Of a stretch of 64,000 nt of DNA, positions 10,643 through 28,270 are shown in pieces. The stretch comes from Streptomyces caniferus (GTDB lineage: Bacteria; Actinomycetota; Actinomycetes; Streptomycetales; Streptomycetaceae). The notes beneath the pieces were generated by a model, which saw nothing but the letters and a program-made list of their open reading frames with translations, did no database searches and had not been told where the DNA came from. The stretch covers positions 372,001 to 436,000 of the forward strand of contig NZ_BLIN01000001.1 of the NCBI RefSeq assembly GCF_009811555.1, in the 5' to 3' direction. Position numbers and translations under genes: made by a program. Numbering within the stretch: position 1 is the first letter of the stretch; the number at the start of each line of letters is the position of its first letter.

Positions 10643-12694
10643 CTACTTCTTGGGCGCCGCCTTCTCCTTCTTCGGCTGGGAGACCGGGCCGCGGCGGACC
10701 GCACCCGGAGCGTTCCACTCCGCGCGCTTGCGGGCGCGCAGCTTGGCGGCCTCGGAGGAGTCCAGCTGCCAGGGCACGGAGGTGACCATGACGCCGGGGG
10801 TGAAGAGGAGGCGGCCCTTGAGGCGCAGTGCGGACTGGTTGTGCAGCAGGTGCTCGTACCAGTGGCCGACGACGTATTCGGGGATGTAGACGGAGACGGC
10901 GTCGCGCGGGCTCTCCCGGCGCAGCGACTTGACGTAGTCGATGATCGGCCGGGTGATCTCGCGGTACGGGGAGGCCAGGACCTTCAGCGGCACCTCGATG
11001 CCGCGGCGCTCCCACTCCTCCCGCAGGGCCTTGGTGTCGGCCTGGTCCACGTCCACGCTGACCGCTTCGAGGCTGTCGGAGCGCATCAGCTTGGCGTAGT
11101 TCAGGGCGCGCAGGGTGGGCTTGTGCACCTTGGAGACCAGGACAAGGGAGTGCACCCGGGAGGGGCGGACCACGTCGTCGTCCGGGGTTTCCTCGGCGGC
11201 GATCTCGTCGGCGACCCGGTCGTAGTGGCGGCGGATCGCGGACATCGTCACAAAGAAGATGACCATGCCGAGGAGCGCGACCCAGGCGCCGTGGGTGAAC
11301 TTCGTCAGGAGGACGACGACCAGGACCAGGCCCGTGAAGAAGGCACCGAATGCGTTGATGGCGCGGGAGCGGTGCATCCGGCGGCGCTTGGCCGGGTCGG
11401 TCTCGCTGAGCAGATGGCGGTTCCAGTGGCGGACCATGCCGGTCTGGCTGAGCGTGAACGAGACGAAGACGCCGACGATGTAGAGCTGGATCAGGCGGGT
11501 CGAGTCCGCGCCGTAGAGGTACACGAGGATCGCGGCGGCGCCGGCCAGCAGGACGATTCCGTTGGAGAACGCCAGGCGATCGCCGCGGGTGTGCAGCTGG
11601 CGCGGCAGATAGCGGTCCTGGGCGAGGATCGAGCCGAGCAGCGGGAAGCCGTTGTAGGCGGTGTTCGCGGCGAGGAACAGCACCAGAGCGGTGGCGGCGG
11701 CGAGGATGACGAAGAGGAAGCTGCCCTTGCCGAAGACCGCCTCGGCCACCTGCGAGATGACCGGGTTCTGGGTGTAGCCGGAGCCGACCGGCTTGCCGTG
11801 GTCGAGCAGGTCCTTGGCGGGGGTCTCCGCCATCCGGACGTGGGTCGCCATGGCCAGGCCGATGATGCCGCAGAACATGGTGACGGCCAGGCCGCCCATG
11901 AGGGCCAGCGTGGTCGCGGCGTTCTTGGACTTCGGCTTGCGGAAGGCCGGGACGCCGTTGGAGATCGCCTCGACGCCGGTGAGCGCGGCACAGCCGGAGG
12001 AGAAGGCGCGCAGCATGAGGAAGACGAGGGCGAAGCCGGCCAGGCCGCCCTGTTCCGCGTGGATGGTGAAGCCCGCGGTGGGGGCCTGCATCGTGTCGCC
12101 CAGGACGACGCCGCGGATCACGCCCCAGGCGATCATGATGAAGACGCCGGCCACGAAGACGTACGTCGGAATCGCGAAGAGCTTGCCCGACTCCTTGACG
12201 CCGCGCAGGTTCATCAGCGTCAGCAGCACGATGATGGCGATCGCGCACAGCGTCTTGTGCTGGACGACGAACGGGATCGCGGAGCCCAGGTTCTCCACTC
12301 CGGAGGCGATGGAGACCGCGACGGTCAGCACATAGTCGACGAGCAGGGCGCTGGCGACGGTGAGACCGGCCTTGGGGCCGAGGTTGGTGTTGGCGACCTC
12401 GTAGTCGCCGCCGCCGCTCGGGTAGGCGTGCACGTTCTGCCGGTACGACGCGACGACGGTGAACATCAGCACCACGACCGCGACCGCGATCCAGGGGCTG
12501 AAGTTGTACGCAGACACACCCGCGATGGACAGGACGAGCAGCACCTCGCCGGGCGCATAGGCCACCGAGGAGAGCGGGTCGGAGGCGAAGACGGGGAGTG
12601 CGATGCGCTTGGGAAGCAGGGTCTCCCCTAGCTTGTCGCTGCGCAGTGCGCGCCCGATCAAGATCCGTTTGGGCACGTCGGTCAGTTTGGACAC
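10643..12694 (-). CDS. KimA-like potassium importer (APC/KUP superfamily)
   Basis: The 683-residue protein has about twelve membrane helices between residues 40 and 480 and a cytoplasmic C-terminal domain. The hallmark FASDPLSSVAYAPGEVLL follows the N-terminus, as in KimA (YdaO) potassium-proton symporters and their actinobacterial relatives. The basic, Lys/Ala-rich tail is typical of the Streptomyces form. The start is GTG at 12694. No Shine-Dalgarno site is visible, but TAGCAT lies seven bases upstream, which would fit a leaderless transcript. The gene is adjacent to RCK/TrkA-type genes, supporting a role in potassium rather than amino-acid transport. In other bacteria KimA is controlled by cyclic-di-AMP. 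The annotation as a generic amino-acid permease is the alternative. Confidence 0.8.
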   Translation of the reverse strand: MSKLTDVPKRILIGRALRSDKLGETLLPKRIALPVFASDPLSSVAYAPGEVLLVLSIAGVSAYNFSPWIAVAVVVLMFTVVASYRQNVHAYPSGGGDYEVANTNLGPKAGLTVASALLVDYVLTVAVSIASGVENLGSAIPFVVQHKTLCAIAIIVLLTLMNLRGVKESGKLFAIPTYVFVAGVFIMIAWGVIRGVVLGDTMQAPTAGFTIHAEQGGLAGFALVFLMLRAFSSGCAALTGVEAISNGVPAFRKPKSKNAATTLALMGGLAVTMFCGIIGLAMATHVRMAETPAKDLLDHGKPVGSGYTQNPVISQVAEAVFGKGSFLFVILAAATALVLFLAANTAYNGFPLLGSILAQDRYLPRQLHTRGDRLAFSNGIVLLAGAAAILVYLYGADSTRLIQLYIVGVFVSFTLSQTGMVRHWNRHLLSETDPAKRRRMHRSRAINAFGAFFTGLVLVVVLLTKFTHGAWVALLGMVIFFVTMSAIRRHYDRVADEIAAEETPDDDVVRPSRVHSLVLVSKVHKPTLRALNYAKLMRSDSLEAVSVDVDQADTKALREEWERRGIEVPLKVLASPYREITRPIIDYVKSLRRESPRDAVSVYIPEYVVGHWYEHLLHNQSALRLKGRLLFTPGVMVTSVPWQLDSSEAAKLRARKRAEWNAPGAVRRGPVSQPKKEKAAPKK

Positions 12695-12884
12695 GCAGAG
12701 GATGCTAAGCCTTCGTCAAGGTCTGCGCCCACCCGCTACCGGATCGGGTGGCCTCGGCGGGGAACGCAGTGCGTCGAGCGGGGTGCGTCTGCCCTGCTGA
12801 GGGGCGCATCGGAGCCGGTCGCCTCCACAGAATCCGCACGTCGCGCGCACGGCACGGCCCCGGCAGGCCGTATCCGTGGCATTC

Positions 12885-13285
12885 GTCACGGGGTTGCCGC
12901 GATCCGTCACGGAGATGACGCGACCTGTCACGCGTACGACTACACCGGTCACGAATTGACGCCGGTCGTCACGGAACGCGATGCCCGAGTCACCATGAGG
13001 TGTCGCGGCGGAGTCATGGGATCCACTGTGGGGTCAGAGGTGGCCTTGGGCGGGTGGTCATGGGTGGGTGGGCGCGGCGGAGAGTCCGGGAGCGCCGCTG
13101 CCGGCGTCGCTCCTGAGTCACCCCACGCGCCGGTGAGTCACCCTTGCGAGTCGATGAGTCACCCCACGTGGTGGCGAGGCGGACCCACCACGTCCCCGCG
13201 AGTCACCCCATGGGGTGGCGAACCCACCACGTCCCTGCGGGTCACCCACGAGTCGTCGAGTCACCCTCACGTGCCCGCGAGTCAC
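12885..13285. repeat. Phased array of GTCAC repeats upstream of the KimA-like gene
   Basis: Thirteen exact GTCAC copies start at 12885, 12906, 12927, 12948, 12968, 12989, 13117, 13137, 13158, 13202, 13241, 13260 and 13281. Spacings are 21, 21, 21, 20 and 21 in the first block. In the second block they are 20, 21, 44, 39, 19 and 21, that is, one or two units of about 20 bp. Degenerate copies (GTCAT/GTCAG) at 13013, 13033 and 13057 partly bridge the blocks. The spacing is two helical turns, so all copies face one side of the DNA. The last copy contains the stop codon of the next gene. No reading frame or transposon explains it. Confidence 0.85.
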
Positions 13286-15321
13286 CCCTGCCGGGCGTCC
13301 CCTGTCCCCGCTCCGGCCCCTGACTCCGCCCCGGCCCCCGCACCCCGCTGACGCCGTACATGCAGATCTCCCAGCCCCTGTCGCGTGGCGACCAGCAGCA
13401 CCCGGTCCTGCGGCCGGAGGACGTAGCCGGCGCCGAGCTCGTGCACCAGGTGGGCGGGCTCGCGCTCCGCTTCCGGCGGTGGCGCCGCGGCCCCGCCGTC
13501 CGTCTCCGGGTCGTCCGGTGTGGAGGTGTCGACCGCCAGCACCCGCAGCCGCCCCGGCCGGAGCACCTCGCCGACCGTACGGCCCTCCAACGCCACATGG
13601 CCGCGTACCTCGACCCGCGCGACCAGCAGCACCCGGCGCTCGACCGGAATGGCACCGAGGATCTGGCGGCCCATCATCGCGCCGGCGAAGGCGGGCGCGG
13701 CCAGGTAGCTGACGCTCCGGCTGCGGGTCAGTGCCCGCGGGTGCGCGGCGCGCAGGGTGCGGTAGACGGCGGTGGCGAACCGGTCGTCGAACAGCCGCAG
13801 GGTCACCCGCAGCCGCGGATTGACCGAGCGGGCGTAGAGGGCGGCCTCCAGGTTGGTGGTGTCCTCGCTGGTCAGGGCGAGCAGGGTGGCCGCGCGCTCG
13901 ATCACCGCGGCCTCCAGGACACCTTCGTGGGTGACGTCGCCCAGTACGGTCGGCACCCGCAGCCGGCGGGCCAGCGCGATACCCCGCGCCTCCGGGTCCC
14001 CTTCGATGCACACCACGGGGATGCCCATCTCGTGCAGCCGCGCCAGCACCCGGGTGCCGACCTTGCCGAGGCCGAGCAGCACCACATGCCCCGACAGACC
14101 GCGTGGCGGGCGGCGCAGCGCCGAGGCGCTGCGGAAGGTGCCCAGTCCCTCGAACGCCGCCGCGACGAGCACCGGCAGCAGCAACAGCCCGGTCAGCCCG
14201 GACAGCAGCTGCAGGATCTTGCGGGGCGTCGGATCGTGGATCGCCGGGTCATTGATCGCGAAGAGGTCCAGCAGCGAGAGGTAGGCGGCGTGCACCGGAT
14301 CCTCCCCGGTGGTCAGGGAACCGGCGACGGCCAGCGCCAGCACCGCGCCGACGACCGCGGCCAGGGACCAGCGCAGCCGCCGGGAGAAGAGCGAGGCGAG
14401 CGGTGCGCCGCGGCCGCGCAGTCCGCGGGGGCGCACCGGCCGCCCCGTATAGGAGACGGTCTCCAGGACGATGGTTCCGCAGCCGACGGCGGCCGCGGCC
14501 GCGGCGTCGTCCGGCAGCAGTACGGGCCCCTCGTCGACGGCCGCCGAACTCGGCACGTCCTCGGGGTCGTTGGCGGAGGCGGAGAGCAGTGCCAGGGTGC
14601 ACAGCCCCGGATCGCCGGGCCGGCCCGGCGGCACCGGCGTACGCTCCACGGCGCGCAGCAGCAGCCCGTCCGCCTCGATGACCTTGCTGGTACCGGCGAC
14701 CGCGGTGGCCACCAGCGCGGGAGCCACGGTGTCGGCGTCGGACAGTACGGTCGTGGAGGCATCGGCGGCCTCCACGTCCCCGGCGTCGTCGGAACCCAGG
14801 GCGGCGACGGCCGCCGCCTGGTCGAGCAACTCCTCCAGATGCTGGCCGAGTTTGCGGTTGTAGAGCCGGATGACCAGCCGCAGCCGGGGGTTGAGCCTGC
14901 GGGCCCGCAGGGCGGCATGGATGTTGAGCTCATCGTCGTCGTAGACCAGCGCCAGGGCGTCCGCGTCGACGATGCCCGCCGCGGCCAGCGCCGCATCGTC
15001 GGGCTGCGCCGCCTCCAGGAGCCGTACGGTCTCCTCCTGCACCTCCGCGCCGTCGTCCAGGCCCTCGGGTGGCAGCGGTGTCGTCCGCGTCATCGCCGCC
15101 GACATCCGGCCCAGCAGCGCGGTGGCCCGGTCCAGCGCGCGGGCCGGCGGCGGGATGCGGGGGCGGTGCGGCTCCCGGGCGGAGGGGACGACGAGCGTCA
15201 CCCGTTCGCCGTAGACGTCCCGGAGTTCGGCGGCGAGCCGATGCGCCAGCGCATCGTCGCCGCAAACCACCATGTGCGGGGTGCAGTAGCCCTGTTGGGG
15301 CTGGAGAGGCAGGTTGGGCAC
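13282..15321 (-). CDS. RCK-2TM-RCK protein (TrkA-N family, putative potassium channel or regulator)
   Basis: This 679-residue protein has two NAD-binding TrkA-N/RCK modules around a membrane region. The first module covers about residues 17-160. Two helices follow at about 317-340 and 367-392, and the second module starts near 405 with the Rossmann motif HVVLLGLGKVGTRVLARL. The segment between the helices (LLDLFAINDPAIHDP) lacks a TVGYG-like potassium filter, so it is not an ordinary channel. The start is GTG at 15321 with GAGG close by, and an internal ATG 16 codons on is possible. The C-terminal tail is a Gly/Ala repeat and ends inside the GTCAC array. It is divergent from ceoB, which points to shared control of potassium genes. 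Confidence 0.8.
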   Translation of the reverse strand: MPNLPLQPQQGYCTPHMVVCGDDALAHRLAAELRDVYGERVTLVVPSAREPHRPRIPPPARALDRATALLGRMSAAMTRTTPLPPEGLDDGAEVQEETVRLLEAAQPDDAALAAAGIVDADALALVYDDDELNIHAALRARRLNPRLRLVIRLYNRKLGQHLEELLDQAAAVAALGSDDAGDVEAADASTTVLSDADTVAPALVATAVAGTSKVIEADGLLLRAVERTPVPPGRPGDPGLCTLALLSASANDPEDVPSSAAVDEGPVLLPDDAAAAAAVGCGTIVLETVSYTGRPVRPRGLRGRGAPLASLFSRRLRWSLAAVVGAVLALAVAGSLTTGEDPVHAAYLSLLDLFAINDPAIHDPTPRKILQLLSGLTGLLLLPVLVAAAFEGLGTFRSASALRRPPRGLSGHVVLLGLGKVGTRVLARLHEMGIPVVCIEGDPEARGIALARRLRVPTVLGDVTHEGVLEAAVIERAATLLALTSEDTTNLEAALYARSVNPRLRVTLRLFDDRFATAVYRTLRAAHPRALTRSRSVSYLAAPAFAGAMMGRQILGAIPVERRVLLVARVEVRGHVALEGRTVGEVLRPGRLRVLAVDTSTPDDPETDGGAAAPPPEAEREPAHLVHELGAGYVLRPQDRVLLVATRQGLGDLHVRRQRGAGAGAESGAGAGTGDARQG

Positions 15322-18501: not shown

Positions 18502-19185
18502 TCACTGCTCGAAGCGGTACCCCATCCCCGGCTCCGTGATGAAGTGCTTCGGGTGCGAGGGATCGCTCTCCAGCTTGCGGCGGAGCTGGGCCATGTACAC
18601 CCGCAGATAGTTGGTCTCGGTGCCGTACGAGGGGCCCCAGACCTCCTGGAGCAGCTGCTTCTGGCTGACCAGCCGGCCCGCGTTGCGGACCAGGACCTCC
18701 AGCAGATGCCACTCGGTGGGGGTCAGCCGGATGTCCCGGCCGCCGCGGTTGACCTTCTTCGCGGCGAGGTCGACGGAGAAACCTTCCGTCTCCACGATCA
18801 CCTCGGCGTCGGCGGGCCCGGTCGGCTCGGCCCTGCGCACCGCCGCCCGGAGCCGGGCCAGCAGCTCGTCCATGCCGAACGGCTTGGTGACGTAGTCGTC
18901 CGCCCCTGCGTCCAGCGCCTCCACCTTCTCGTCGGAGGTCTGCCGGGCGGAGAGCACCAGGATCGGCACCCGGGTCCAGCCCCGCAGCCCCTTGATCACC
19001 TCCACGCCGTCCATGTCCGGCAGACCGAGGTCGAGGACGACGACGTCGGGGTGGCGGGCGGCCGCGAGTTTGAGCGCGGTGGCTCCGTCGGGGGCCGCGT
19101 CGACCTCGTATTTGCGCGCCTTCAGGTTGATCACGAGGGCGCGGACGATCTGCGGCTCGTCATCGACCACAAGCACCCGGTTCAC
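18502..19185 (-). CDS. kdpE: KdpE, OmpR-type response regulator of the Kdp potassium pump
   Basis: The 227-residue protein has a receiver domain (acidic pair VVDDE, phosphoacceptor Asp in VVLDLGLPDMDG, switch Thr/Ser in ILVLSAR, Lys in VTKPFG) and a C-terminal winged-helix DNA-binding domain (LTPTEWHLLEVLVRN, GTETNYLRVYMAQLRRKLE). It should be phosphorylated by KdpD and activate kdpFABC when potassium is scarce. The GTG start has GAGGAG seven bases upstream and follows kdpD by 79 bases. It is unusual that the pump operon is not directly adjacent: an acetyltransferase gene and a pseudogene separate them. Confidence 0.93.
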   Translation of the reverse strand: MNRVLVVDDEPQIVRALVINLKARKYEVDAAPDGATALKLAAARHPDVVVLDLGLPDMDGVEVIKGLRGWTRVPILVLSARQTSDEKVEALDAGADDYVTKPFGMDELLARLRAAVRRAEPTGPADAEVIVETEGFSVDLAAKKVNRGGRDIRLTPTEWHLLEVLVRNAGRLVSQKQLLQEVWGPSYGTETNYLRVYMAQLRRKLESDPSHPKHFITEPGMGYRFEQ

Positions 19186-19264: not shown

Positions 19265-21817
19265 TCATGTCGTGGCCTGGGCGGGAAGGTCGGGCCTGGC
19301 CGGCGGCCGGCCGGACGCCGCCCGGAGCGTGAGGACCATCGTCATACCGCCTCCGGGGGTGTCCTCGGCGGCGAGCGTGCCGCCCATCGCCTCCGCGAAT
19401 CCGCGCGCCACGGCCAGCCCGAGGCCCACACCGGCACCGCGCGGAGCGTCGCCGTAGCGCTGGAAGGGTTCGAAGATCCGGTCCTTGGCGCTGTCCGGCA
19501 CCCCCGGGCCGCGGTCGGCGACCCGCAGCTCCACCCGGTCGCCGAGCGCACTGGCCGAGACCAGTACCTGCGTCCCGTCGGGGCTGTACTTCACGGCGTT
19601 CTCCACCAGGTTGGCGACCGAGCGTTCCAGCAGCCCCGGGTCGACGGCCACGATCGGCAGCTCCTCGGGGATGTCGAGGGTGACGCTGCCCTCCGGGACG
19701 CCGCCGAGCGCCATCGGCACCACCTCGTCGAGGTCGATCTCGCGGATCAGCGGGGTGACCGTGCCGGTCTGCAGCCGGGACATGTCCAGGAGGTTGCCGA
19801 CCAGGTGGTCCAGGCGGTCGGCGCCCGCCTCGATGCCGGCCAGCAGCTCCGCCTCGTCCTCCTCGGACCAGGCGACGTCGTCGGAGCGCAGGGAGGTGAC
19901 GGAGGCCTTGATGCCGGCCAGCGGGGTCCGCAGATCGTGGCTGACCGCGGCCAGCAGCGCCGTCCTGATGCGGTTGCCCTCGGCCAGCTCACGGGCCCGC
20001 TCCGCCTCGCCCACCAGCCGCTGCCGGTCCAGTACGACGGCGGCCTGGGCGGCGAACGCGGCCAGCACCCGGCGGTCCTCCGCGGGCAGCACCCGGCCGG
20101 TCAGCGCCAGCGCCATGTGGTCGCCCACCGGCATGTCGACATCGGCGTCCTCGGGGCGCAGGAGCGGCTTGCCGTGGTCACTGCCGGCCCGGCCCGCGCA
20201 GGTCCACGGCTCGACGTCGCCGGCCCGCTCCAGCAGCGCCACCGTCTCCATGCCGAAGGTCTCCCGGACCCGCTCCAGCAGGGCGTCCAGGGTCGTCTCG
20301 CCGCGCAGCACGCTGCCCGCGAGGAACGAGAGGATCTCCGACTCGGCGCGCAGCCTGGCCGCCTGATGGGTGCGGCGGGCGGCGAGGTCCACCACGGAGG
20401 CGACCGAGACGGCCACCGCGAAGAAGATCACGATGGCGACGATGTTCTTGGGGTCGTCGACCGTGAGGGTGTGGGTGGGCGGCGTGAAGTAGAAGTTCAG
20501 CAGCAGCGAGCCGACCGCGGCGGACGCCAGGGCCGGCAGCTGCCCGCCGAGCAGCGCGGCGACGACCGTCAGGAAGAGGAAGAGCAGGACATCGTTGGCC
20601 AGTCCGGGGCCGTTCACCATGCCGGTCAGCAGCAGCGAGAGCAGGACCGGGCCGACGACGCCGACGAGCCAGCCGGCGATGATCCGGGTCCGTCCCAGCC
20701 GCGCGCCGCGCGCCACCGGCAGCCCCCGGCCCTTGGCGACCTCGTCGTGGGTGACGATGTGCACATCGAGGTCGGGGCCGGATTCGCGGGCGACGGTCGC
20801 CCCCACGCCCGGCCCGAAGATGTACTGCCAGGCCTTGCGGCGACTGGAGCCCAGCACGATCTGGGTGGCATTGACCCCGCGCGCGAACTCCAGCAGTGCG
20901 CTGGGTATGTCGTCCCCGATGACGTGGTGAAACGTACCGCCCAGGTCCTCCACCAGGGTCCGCTGGACGGCGAGTTCCTTGGGCGAGGCCGAGGTCAGCC
21001 CGTCGCTGCGGGCGATGTAGACGGCGAGCACCTCGCTGCCCGACCCCTTGGCCGCCATCCTCGCCGCTCGGCGGATCAGCGTACGGCCCTCCGGCCCGCC
21101 GGTCAGTCCGACGACGATGCGCTCGCGCGCCTGCCAGGTGGAACGGATCGAATGCTCCGCCCGGTACTCCTGCAGATACTCGTCCACCCGGTCGGCGACC
21201 CACAGCAGCGCCAGCTCGCGCAGCGCCGTGAGGTTGCCGGGCCGGAAGTAGTTGGACAGGGCGGCGTCCACCTTGTCGGGCTGGTAGATGTTGCCGTGCG
21301 CCATCCGACGGCGGATCGCCTGGGGCGACATGTCGACAAGCTCGATCTGGTCGGCCCTGCGCACGATCTCGTCGGGCACGGTCTCGCGCTGCCGCACACC
21401 CGTTATCGACTCGACGACATCCCCGAGTGACTCCAGGTGCTGGATGTTGACCGTCGAGATGACGTCGATCCCCGCTTCCAGCAGCTCCTCGATGTCCTGC
21501 CAGCGCTTGCCGTTGCGCGAACCGGGGACGTTGGTGTGTGCCAGCTCGTCGACCAGCGCCACGGCCGGATCGCGTTCCAGGACCGCGTCCACGTCCATTT
21601 CGGTGAATACGGTGTCGCGGTACTCCAACTCCCGGCGCTGGATCTGCTCCAGCCCGTGCAGCATGACCTCCGTACGGGGCCTGCCGTGATGCTCGACGAA
21701 CGCCACGACCACGTCCGTGCCCCGCTCCACGCGCCGGTGCGCCTCGGACAGCATCGCGTACGTCTTTCCGACGCCCGGTGCCGCGCCGAGGTATATCCGT
21801 AGCTTGCCGCGTGCCAT
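19265..21817 (-). CDS. kdpD: KdpD, potassium/osmotic sensor histidine kinase
   Basis: The 850-residue protein has the full KdpD layout. The cytosolic KdpD domain carries a Walker A motif at residues 11-19 (GAAPGVGKT) and Walker B near VALVDELAHTN. A universal-stress-like domain spans about residues 230-370 and four membrane helices about 385-485. A GAF-like segment, the dimerisation/His box AVSHDLRTPLAGIKA, and a C-terminal ATPase domain (NLVENAVKYSPDG, DRGPGVPD, GVGLGLAVARGF) follow. In other Gram-positives the stress-protein domain binds cyclic-di-AMP. Whether this one does is not visible. The ATG start has only GGGG as ribosome site. Confidence 0.94.
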   Translation of the reverse strand: MARGKLRIYLGAAPGVGKTYAMLSEAHRRVERGTDVVVAFVEHHGRPRTEVMLHGLEQIQRRELEYRDTVFTEMDVDAVLERDPAVALVDELAHTNVPGSRNGKRWQDIEELLEAGIDVISTVNIQHLESLGDVVESITGVRQRETVPDEIVRRADQIELVDMSPQAIRRRMAHGNIYQPDKVDAALSNYFRPGNLTALRELALLWVADRVDEYLQEYRAEHSIRSTWQARERIVVGLTGGPEGRTLIRRAARMAAKGSGSEVLAVYIARSDGLTSASPKELAVQRTLVEDLGGTFHHVIGDDIPSALLEFARGVNATQIVLGSSRRKAWQYIFGPGVGATVARESGPDLDVHIVTHDEVAKGRGLPVARGARLGRTRIIAGWLVGVVGPVLLSLLLTGMVNGPGLANDVLLFLFLTVVAALLGGQLPALASAAVGSLLLNFYFTPPTHTLTVDDPKNIVAIVIFFAVAVSVASVVDLAARRTHQAARLRAESEILSFLAGSVLRGETTLDALLERVRETFGMETVALLERAGDVEPWTCAGRAGSDHGKPLLRPEDADVDMPVGDHMALALTGRVLPAEDRRVLAAFAAQAAVVLDRQRLVGEAERARELAEGNRIRTALLAAVSHDLRTPLAGIKASVTSLRSDDVAWSEEDEAELLAGIEAGADRLDHLVGNLLDMSRLQTGTVTPLIREIDLDEVVPMALGGVPEGSVTLDIPEELPIVAVDPGLLERSVANLVENAVKYSPDGTQVLVSASALGDRVELRVADRGPGVPDSAKDRIFEPFQRYGDAPRGAGVGLGLAVARGFAEAMGGTLAAEDTPGGGMTMVLTLRAASGRPPARPDLPAQATT

Positions 21818-23421: not shown

Positions 23422-24099
23422 TCAGCCCTTGCCCCCGCCGTGGACCAGATCCTTCAGCGCCGTGTTCAACTCCAGTACGTTGACGCGCGGTTCCCCCAGG
23501 AAACCGAGGGTGCGGGCGTCGGTGTGGCGCTCGACCAGCCGACGTACCGTGCCGCCGGGCAAGTGGTTCTCCCTGGCGACCCGGTCCGCCTGCAGCTCGG
23601 CGTACGCGGGCGAGATGTCCGGGTCGAGTCCGGAACCCGACGAGGTGACGGCGTCCGCCGGGACCTTCGCCTCGGGGACCCCGTACGTCTCGGAGACCCA
23701 CCGCTTGCGCTCCTTCACCGCCTTGGCGAGGTCGGTATTGGTGGCGCCCAGGTTGGAGGCGCCGGAGACCTGGAGGTCGTACCCGGTGTTGACGCCATTG
23801 GCCCGGTTGCTGCCCAGCCCCGCGGCGGGGCGCGGCTGGAAGAACCTCAGGTCCGGGACCGGGTTGCCCCTCTTGTCCTTGCCCTTGTCGTAGCGCTGGC
23901 CGATCAGCGACGAACCGACGACCTTGCCGTGGGAGCTCACCTCGGACCCGTTGGCCTTGCCGGGGAACGCCGCCTGCGCCACGCCGGTGACCACCAGCGG
24001 GTAGACGACCCCGCAGACCACGGTCAGGACGAGCAGGGCGCGCAGGCCCGCCCCGATCAACCGGGCGGTGTTGCGGACGGAGTTGTTCACGGTGGTCAC
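23422..24099 (-). CDS. kdpC: KdpC, potassium-transporting ATPase subunit C
   Basis: The 225-residue subunit has one N-terminal membrane helix (about residues 15-42) and an extracytoplasmic domain with family motifs: [34 protein letters not shown], and [11 protein letters not shown] near the C-terminus. KdpC stabilises the complex and helps potassium capture for KdpA. The GTG start overlaps the kdpB stop by four bases (GTGA). At 225 residues it is somewhat longer than the roughly 190-residue E. coli protein, as is usual in Streptomyces. Confidence 0.95.
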
Positions 24100-27950: not shown

Positions 27951-28040
27951 TCAGAACCTCTCCGGGAAGACGAGGGCGAGGACCAGGTAGCCGAGCAGGG
28001 CGACGGCCACGACCAGACCGACGATGTTCTCCACGGTCAC
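27951..28040 (-). CDS. kdpF: KdpF, single-helix accessory subunit (29 residues)
   Basis: The peptide is one hydrophobic helix starting [20 protein letters not shown] and ending FPERF, the standard KdpF pattern. In E. coli KdpF stabilises the KdpABC complex. Its GTG start shares a GTGA with the stop of the preceding 27-residue gene, and its TGA is one base before the kdpA start. It is too short for normal gene finders. Confidence 0.92.
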
Positions 28041-28120
28041 AGCTTCGCCACCCCCTTGGCGACGAGAGCCACCAGCGCGAAGACCGCGATCGTGACGACG
28101 ACGAAGGCCACATCGGCCAT
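28037..28120 (-). CDS. 27-residue membrane peptide, first gene of the kdp operon
   Basis: ATG at 28120 is preceded by AGGAG at a spacing of six. The peptide begins MADVAFVVVTIAVFALVALV and ends with the basic tail AKGVAKL, so it is one membrane helix with a positive inside end. Its stop overlaps the kdpF start by four bases, the same coupling used through the rest of the operon. It looks like a second KdpF-sized subunit or a leader that loads ribosomes for kdpF. Comparable short genes occur ahead of kdpF in actinobacteria, but I know of no assigned function. Confidence 0.8.
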   Translation of the reverse strand: MADVAFVVVTIAVFALVALVAKGVAKL

Positions 28121-28159: not shown

Positions 28160-28193
28160 AGCAAAGCGCCGTTCCGGCCGTCTGTGACCGCCG

Positions 28194-28232
28194 TTGACGG
28201 CTCCCTTACGGCCATTGGCGCTCCCTTGACGA
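28194..28232 (-). promoter_or_regulatory. Candidate KdpE operator or promoter region
   Basis: On the leftward strand AAGGGAGC occurs twice, exactly 20 bp apart (plus-strand GCTCCCTTA at 28200-28208 and GCTCCCTTG at 28220-28228), flanked by two TTGACG words (28194 and 28227). It lies 80-110 bases before the first kdp gene. Tandem half-sites two turns apart suit an OmpR-family dimer such as KdpE. The identity of the protein is inference. Confidence 0.5.
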
Positions 28233-28270
28233 CTTTCCTACGCAGCACGACCTGACCTGCACAAACGGAG

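Follow-up and report, generated by a model that had tools for sequence, protein, structure and literature searches.

The GTnAC box is known in a form read by GlnR. The operators of MtrA, AfsQ1 and GlnR in Streptomyces share this half-site, set as direct repeats on one face of the helix, and the sections of the sources used here also tie MtrA to osmotic stress in S. venezuelae and list TGACAGG as its site at adpA (PMC13189361, PMC6988585). The same sections place the MtrA and AfsQ1 repeats about 11 bp apart, and describe none of the three operators as a six- to nine-fold array. BldC forms cooperative head-to-tail multimers on variable numbers of direct repeats, and in the excerpts of PMC5859096 that bear on this its operators are AT-rich AATTNNNN(C) repeats in 9-bp units. 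KdpE sites before kdpFABC are direct repeats of the OmpR/PhoB type. For E. coli the relevant excerpts of PMC3264566 describe the KdpE site as AT-rich, a TTTATA/TTTACA pair separated by 5 bp, on which the DNA-binding domain of KdpE shows no discernible cooperativity. Very little work has been done on how Streptomyces takes up potassium (a 2023 review is cited, on nine putative K+ transporters), and among the papers listed by a search on KdpE, KimA and kdpFABC in this genus, titles and abstracts gave no description of a kimA operator.

The locus considered here lies in a window of 64,000 nucleotides, the whole stretch of Streptomyces caniferus DNA that was analysed, and all plain coordinates refer to it. 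An array of GTGAC words stands in front of a kimA homologue. Like the MtrA, AfsQ1 and GlnR operators it has a GTNAC half-site, in direct repeats on one face: 23 of the 31 collected units start with GTNAC, 7 with ATGAC and 1 with CTGAC. TGACAGG occurs literally in the arrays of S. caniferus and of its relative G390. Unlike the MtrA and AfsQ1 repeats, however, the strong words of the array follow one another at about 21 bp, the weak arm standing at 12, and a second GTNAC half-site at offset 11 (n5-n6 spacer) is found in only 2 of 28 units. The words are GC-rich and 21 bp apart where those of BldC are AT-rich and 9 bp apart; a BldC operator was rejected, as by eye the array holds no AT-rich AATTNNNNC repeats in 9-bp units and its period is about 21. 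The comparison with KdpE cuts both ways. A kdpE gene lies in the same cluster as the array, and the CGTCAA arm of the boxes before kdpF is also the second arm of several array units, but those boxes have 11-bp spacing and CGTMAR words whereas the array words are GTGAC. The literature searched gave no published operator with the dyad described below or with GTGAC repeats. Multi-site operators are already known; the form, place and register of the kimA array appear to be new.

We argue that the part of the array nearest kimA is a lineage-specific multi-copy operator upstream of this gene. This is a prediction, and as the best explanation of the whole we give it a probability of about one half. 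It is built on the observed phase of the words, their retention between drifting spacers, a distribution limited to a single clade, and conserved blocks nearby. From these we infer protein binding at the array, the identity of the binder and an action on kimA.

Two groups of words between kimA and the RCK gene

Exact GTCAC occurs 13 times on the plus strand within 401 bp between two genes that both lie on the minus strand, so on their coding strand the word reads GTGAC. One is the kimA homologue (10643..12694, minus), of the K+/H+ symporter family, which matches the KimA structure 6s3k in the PDB at E 6.5e-117. The other, upstream of the array, encodes an RCK protein with TrkA_N domains (13282..15321, minus). 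The original prediction had counted the thirteen words correctly, and shuffles bear it out: when the window was dinucleotide-shuffled 100 times, the richest 401 bp of each shuffle held 3.9 words on average and 6 at most. By a Poisson estimate GTCAC forms the most improbable cluster among all 5-mers of the window.

The six proximal words start at 12885, 12906, 12927, 12948, 12968 and 12989 on the plus strand. As GTGAC words with steps of 20-21 bp they make up a sub-array (12885..12993, minus) that adjoins kimA, beginning about 190 bp from its start codon; this is the part conserved in the clade. The seven distal words start at 13117, 13137, 13158, 13202, 13241, 13260 and 13281 (plus), and their sub-array (13117..13285, minus) has units of 19-21, 39 and 44 bp. 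As had been claimed, the array runs into the RCK stop codon, which the word at 13281 overlaps. The groups are 128 bp apart, or 6.15 units. GTCA words at 13013, 13033 and 13057 (steps 24, 20, 24) partly fill this gap, and as three further TGAC words on the minus strand (13013..13060) they extend the proximal chain upstream; a counterpart of them was looked for in the relatives and none was seen.

The spacing had been given as 19-21 bp or double that, which suits most steps but not the 128-bp gap or the 44-bp step. All thirteen words have a best common period of 20.95 bp with R 0.93, a value reached by none of 5000 random placements over periods 9-26 (99.9% level 0.82), though with wider period steps for the placements than for the real words. 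This speaks for the claim that all words face one side of the helix, but on a strict 10.5-bp helix R for the thirteen is only 0.73. Taken alone, the proximal six reach R 0.99-1.0 at periods 10.4 and 20.8, and the distal seven 0.94 at 20.5. A coding repeat was rejected because the 20-bp steps break the reading frame.

The distal seven words are probably a young satellite that grew from an array word in this genome, over the RCK stop. We file them as such because their spacers are more similar than composition predicts (identity 0.53 against 0.32 expected; words 1.0), because they are absent from all four relatives that cover the spot (G390, G348, G294 and G064; the S. sioyaensis contig ends before it), and because they lie at a stop codon. 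Another reason is that a second GTCAC array of the same genome (C5:3380774-3380920, L262; steps 44, 20, 20, 27, 31) is likewise missing in five relatives. The distal half also resembles the intergenic minisatellites seen here at other Streptomyces loci, which have a period of about 20 bp, a variable number of units and a place next to a stop codon. These minisatellites differ from the proximal half, which combines a fixed word with spacers close to random. The original prediction of a single operator spanning 400 bp fails for roughly half of that length, since the distal half has no counterpart in the four relatives that cover it. The second array is flanked by an FtsK/FHA-domain gene and a gene for a solute-binding protein, and by eye four of the five relatives show other short repeats there.

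Conservation of the proximal words in one clade

The proximal array is found at the orthologous place in six genomes: S. caniferus, G390, G348, G294, G064 and S. sioyaensis. A 606-bp query spanning the interval between the start of kimA and the RCK stop found matches in 37 of 392 Streptomyces genomes, its own included (E up to 0.001); only in the first five carriers just named do they extend into the proximal array at kimA. S. sioyaensis is the fifth relative with the array; its contig ends 324 bp upstream of kimA. A separate search for relatives gave no further carriers beyond the six. At 20 loci checked from that search and from the shorter matches of the query, some of them kimA promoters, the TGAC chain never exceeds 2. 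The six carriers form one clade with local support 0.949 in a FastTree tree of 22 sequences (1380 bp of kimA). On this tree the clade adjoins G137, which has the anchor, the word unit nearest kimA, without the array. NBRC 110611 falls outside the carrier clade and has two GTGAC words 21 bp apart; its upstream gene differs by eye.

The arrays were walked from word to word upstream of the anchor, accepting TGAC or TCAC at 19-24 bp. The steps are 21, 21, 21, 20, 21 and then 24, 20, 24 in S. caniferus, 20, 21, 21, 21, 20, 21 in G390, 20, 21, 21, 22, 20, 21 in G348, 22, 21, 20, 21, 23 in G294, 20, 21, 20, 21 in S. sioyaensis, and 19, 21 in G064. Related species have 3 to 9 words per array. The TGAC chain numbers 9 in S. 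caniferus, where the best non-overlapping 4-mer reaches 2, and 7, 7 and 6 in G390, G348 and G294. In S. sioyaensis TGAC ties at 3, and in G064 a CGCC chain of 4 exceeds the TGAC chain of 3. A blind test was also made on 121 kimA upstream stretches, some genomes being counted twice via two collections. Four stretches have a 4-mer chain of at least six at 19-23 bp, and the word in these four is TGAC or GTGA; 1210 shuffles gave three chains of five and none of six. The test singles out four of the six carriers, missing S. sioyaensis and G064, and this counts against our reading.

The words were compared with the relatives in an alignment that covers four S. caniferus words plus the anchor and may favour words. 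The words are kept 16/16 against G390, G348 and G294, where the spacers are kept 43/73, 43/71 and 38/73. Against S. sioyaensis the figures are 15/16 and 28/71, the sole change being GTGAC to GTCAC, which is still GTNAC. Against G064 they are 8/8 and 16/41, with half of the words unaligned. The stretch between the array and the promoter block is 69-87% identical to the relatives. Within the S. caniferus proximal array the words have identity 1.0, and the spacers 0.32 pairwise against 0.27 expected from composition. In the units collected across the carriers the word columns are conserved partly by construction, since the collection itself stepped along the words. Because the words are kept against the relatives while the spacers are not, we take the proximal units to turn over in whole steps with the word held.

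This bears on the test attached to the original prediction, which took an array absent or unphased in all close relatives as the mark of a neutral minisatellite. The proximal part is present and phased in five relatives with drifting spacers, which speaks for a binding site; all four relatives that could be compared lack the distal half. We consider it quite probable that the proximal array is a selected multi-copy binding array and not a decaying minisatellite.

The kdp cluster and the promoter side of kimA

Genes for kdpE, kdpD and kdpFABC, which the original prediction did not mention, lie 5-15 kb from the array and kimA; they are named here by their best NCBIfam matches. Two of these matches fall below the curated cut-off: kdpE (18502..19185, minus), an OmpR/PhoB-type response regulator, has 254 of 325 bits, and the sensor kinase kdpD (19265..21817, minus) has 530 of 1123. 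KdpA, KdpB, KdpC and KdpF are each above the cut-off of at least one NCBIfam model, with kdpC at 23422-24099 and kdpF at 27951-28040, and kdpB and kdpA also in the cluster. Since a KimA homologue, RCK proteins, kdpE, kdpD and kdpFABC all occur within about 15 kb, a putative potassium or osmotic switch is a reasonable role for the array. A second kdpA, 75% identical, is present elsewhere in the genome (G000 C5:394541-396178).

A conserved box (28191..28241, minus) lies upstream of kdpF and of a 27-codon frame, and comprises the composites GTAGGAAAGTCGTCAAGG and CGTAAGGGAGCCGTCAACGG, which are 11-bp direct repeats. Its pattern, GTAWGRRANNC-GTCAAS and CGTAAGGGAGG-CGTCAACGG, was taken from an alignment of 17 kdpF promoters. 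It was recovered in 23 of 30 kdpA loci (L274-L303), in one of which only the second composite is plain. This two-composite box is a likely operator of Streptomyces KdpE. The 27-codon frame, which starts ATGGCCGA (28037-28120, between box and kdpF), is conserved in the 17 aligned promoters.

A two-box weight matrix derived from the kdpF boxes fits the array only in part. With the two boxes at spacing 12, the score of the array is reached by 0/200 shuffles in G390 and in G348, 5/200 in G294, 8/200 in S. sioyaensis, 13/200 in S. caniferus and 114/200 in G064. The composite as found before kdpF, CGTMAR...CGTCAA at spacing 11, is not recovered: its score is reached by 96 of 200 shuffles in S. caniferus, 160 in S. 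sioyaensis, 68 in G064, 23 in G390, 19 in G348 and 25 in G294. The fit is also poor downstream of the array on the 12822-12839 side, where the best spacing-11 scores of the carriers are reached by 8-135 of 200. GTGAC itself scores poorly against the kdp half-sites. Since thirty-six combinations of spacing, species and region went into this comparison, the fit at spacing 12 is a lead and not a proof. The same matrix scores 14.2 bits at the kimA box in eight other loci, against a 95% shuffle level of 4.3. This level is exceeded by 11 of 110 kimA upstreams, about 5 or 6 being expected by chance.

Between the array and a promoter-like block lies another conserved block, GTGCGGATTCTGTGGAGG (12822..12839, minus), readable as an 11-bp direct repeat of the response-regulator type. 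Of 112 unique kimA upstreams, 22 have a related 11-bp repeat (GTGCGGATNCTGTGGAGG or GCAAGGATTNCGTTAAGG) at 110-145 bp from the start, against 0.18 in shuffles (maximum 2) and 0 on the reverse strand, the pattern having been fitted post hoc. In the array clade this repeat is the block at 12822-12839, and it is a hint that kdp and kimA belong to one regulon. The block TTGACGAAGGCTTAGCAT (12702..12719, minus), immediately ahead of the kimA start codon, is nearly invariant in the carriers, and its predicted role is probably that of the core promoter. The stretch GGGTGGGCG...TTGACGAAGGCTTAGCATCCTCTGC-GTG (12702-12740), directly before kimA, is kept at 42-45 of 45 positions in the carriers. TAGCAT lies 7 bp before the kimA GTG, a position that suggests leaderless transcription. 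Sigma-70 promoter and terminator patterns gave nothing convincing.

Candidate binders and rival explanations

In the route we propose, a single kind of protein would sit at every second turn of the helix, always on the same face. Its strong contact would be with TGAC, mostly as GTGAC, and its weak one with a second arm, GTCA, 12 bp on. In 10 of 28 units this arm lies exactly 12 bp from where the word begins, against at most 2 for any other offset, and one can see in it either the inverted half of a 15-bp dyad or another half-site in direct orientation. The word is far the stronger of the two (TGAC columns 1.8-2.0 bits, partly owing to the way units were collected, against 0.4-0.6 bits). Units would be gained and lost in whole steps while word and phase are kept. 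The binder may load the array cooperatively and so aid occupancy of the 11-bp-repeat block at 12822-12839, nearer the kimA promoter.

A response regulator of the OmpR/PhoB type is our leading, though tentative, candidate for the binder. KdpE comes first among these because its gene lies in the same potassium cluster and because of the CGTCAA arm, but that it is KdpE itself is rather doubtful. The 12+9 register, 21 bp in all, does not fit canonical 11-bp response-regulator boxes. It counts against KdpE, MtrA, AfsQ1 and GlnR alike; the MtrA and AfsQ1 forms, as given in the parts of the sources that cover them, have 11 bp. Our reading is further weakened by the distance of about 190 bp to the kimA start, which is far for direct contact with the polymerase, by the 3 of 9 chained S. 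caniferus words that have no counterpart in relatives, and by a kdp model that weakens in G294, S. sioyaensis and S. caniferus and is absent in G064. One can imagine a bolder scenario where KdpE coats a clade-specific antenna of at least six phased sites in the 12+9-bp register. This would draw the regulator of kdpFABC to kimA in a graded, copy-number-tunable way, and gain and loss of units would be how each species retunes kimA. In this full form the scenario is unlikely. A predicted operator at kimA that is conserved and phased, together with a candidate regulator from the same cluster and the direct-repeat boxes of kdpF and kimA, makes a compact, testable promoter. With its 3 to 9 words in related species the array is also a natural series in which to study how cooperativity depends on the number of sites and on their helical phase.

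Several other explanations must be weighed against this operator. Each unit could instead be an inverted repeat TGAC-N7-GTCA, at best TGACG-N5-CGTCA, bound by a non-OmpR dimer, for instance of the Lrp/AsnC or TetR type, stacked every two turns. Lrp-like octamers wrap phased sites of such a kind. The arm at offset 12 is in its favor, and the only two such dyads of the window both lie in the array (12916..12930 and, as TGACG-N5-CGTCA, 12957..12971), a count that is ordinary by itself with 0.91 expected in 64 kb. The perfect form is present in at least one unit of S. caniferus, G390, G348 and G294. The palindromes originally noted at 12906 (N6) and 12948 (N5) are there too, but these spacings are not confined to the array, with 3 and 2 matches in the whole window against about 0.8-0.9 expected. 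We doubt the dimer: the arms are unequal, a reading as direct repeats suits these letters too, and a single-dyad search of six genomes with one mismatch gave 56 matches against 40 for a control, 7 of the 56 in the arrays themselves and with no clear regulon. Unequal arms would also suit an activator of the AraC/XylS type, where a monomer with two helix-turn-helices sits on each 21-bp direct repeat, a strong GTGAC box with a weak box one turn on; the half-sites of AraC and XylS have just this geometry. However, no candidate gene was identified, AdpA as the known Streptomyces member reads another word, and to our knowledge arrays so long are not usual for the family, which makes this activator improbable. 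If the units are hairpins in a transcript they could form short TGACG/CGTCA stems, and the distal part folds with z -1.74 (15 of 200 shuffles fold as well). An RNA element is hardly credible all the same, as the partner of the fixed first arm drifts without compensation. The proximal fold has z -0.69, the sole Rfam match below E 1 scores 17.7 of 44 bits, far under the gathering score, and the array lies upstream of the promoter-like block.

A neutral minisatellite over the whole 400 bp would account for the distal half, for the other GTCAC array missing in relatives, and for unit numbers that vary between species. It would require mutations spread evenly over the unit, and the proximal half has invariant words among near-chance spacers, words retained against five relatives, and an invariant five-base run that arose in 0 of 20000 simulations of neutral drift at its own divergence. 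We regard it as very improbable. The anchor raises the case for Crp-cAMP. This unit, CGTGACGAATGCCACG (12875..12890, minus), fits the Streptomyces Crp consensus GTG(N)6GNCAC, as stated in the portion of PMC10033298 used here, in five of the six carriers, G294 deviating at the G, and it is conserved beyond the array clade. Of 110 kimA upstreams 14 contain CGTG-N8-CACG, where shuffles give 1.5 and at most 5. The excess of the strict consensus is weak (15 of 110 against 5.4, maximum 11), and the other array units, which would have to be degenerate Crp half-sites, lack a CAC arm at Crp spacing, so Crp at the array is decidedly improbable. A near-identical 16-mer, a Crp-type site like TGTGACGAACGCCACG, is also a point for Crp; it lies at C5:3633754 (L263), a short way upstream of a gene for a protein with a match to Pfam Beta-lactamase, and recurs in G348, G294 and G064 (L213, L216, L226), seemingly at the same place. 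An anchor search of six genomes with one mismatch gave 57 matches against 25 for the control and no clear regulon.

The preferred operator at kimA was also sought elsewhere. In its own genome blastn at E up to 10 returned only the array and short weak matches (40 scored, best other E 0.15). Three GTCAC at 19-21 bp give six overlapping matches in the kimA array itself and 3 other places against 1 for the control pattern: one inside long open frames, C5:1992589, and C5:3380818, in the second array, which lies between genes and is missing in five relatives. Double TGAC-N7-GTCA dyads were found in 27 of 392 genomes against 6 for the control; of 25 loci viewed several resemble local satellites, and those at kimA are only in G390, G348 and G294. 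A second double-dyad place in G294 (L174) is outside long frames. Repeats of 19-21 bp on TGAC-N7-GTCA also occur in other Streptomyces (L170, L176, L177, L183, L187, L191), several apparently at gene ends.
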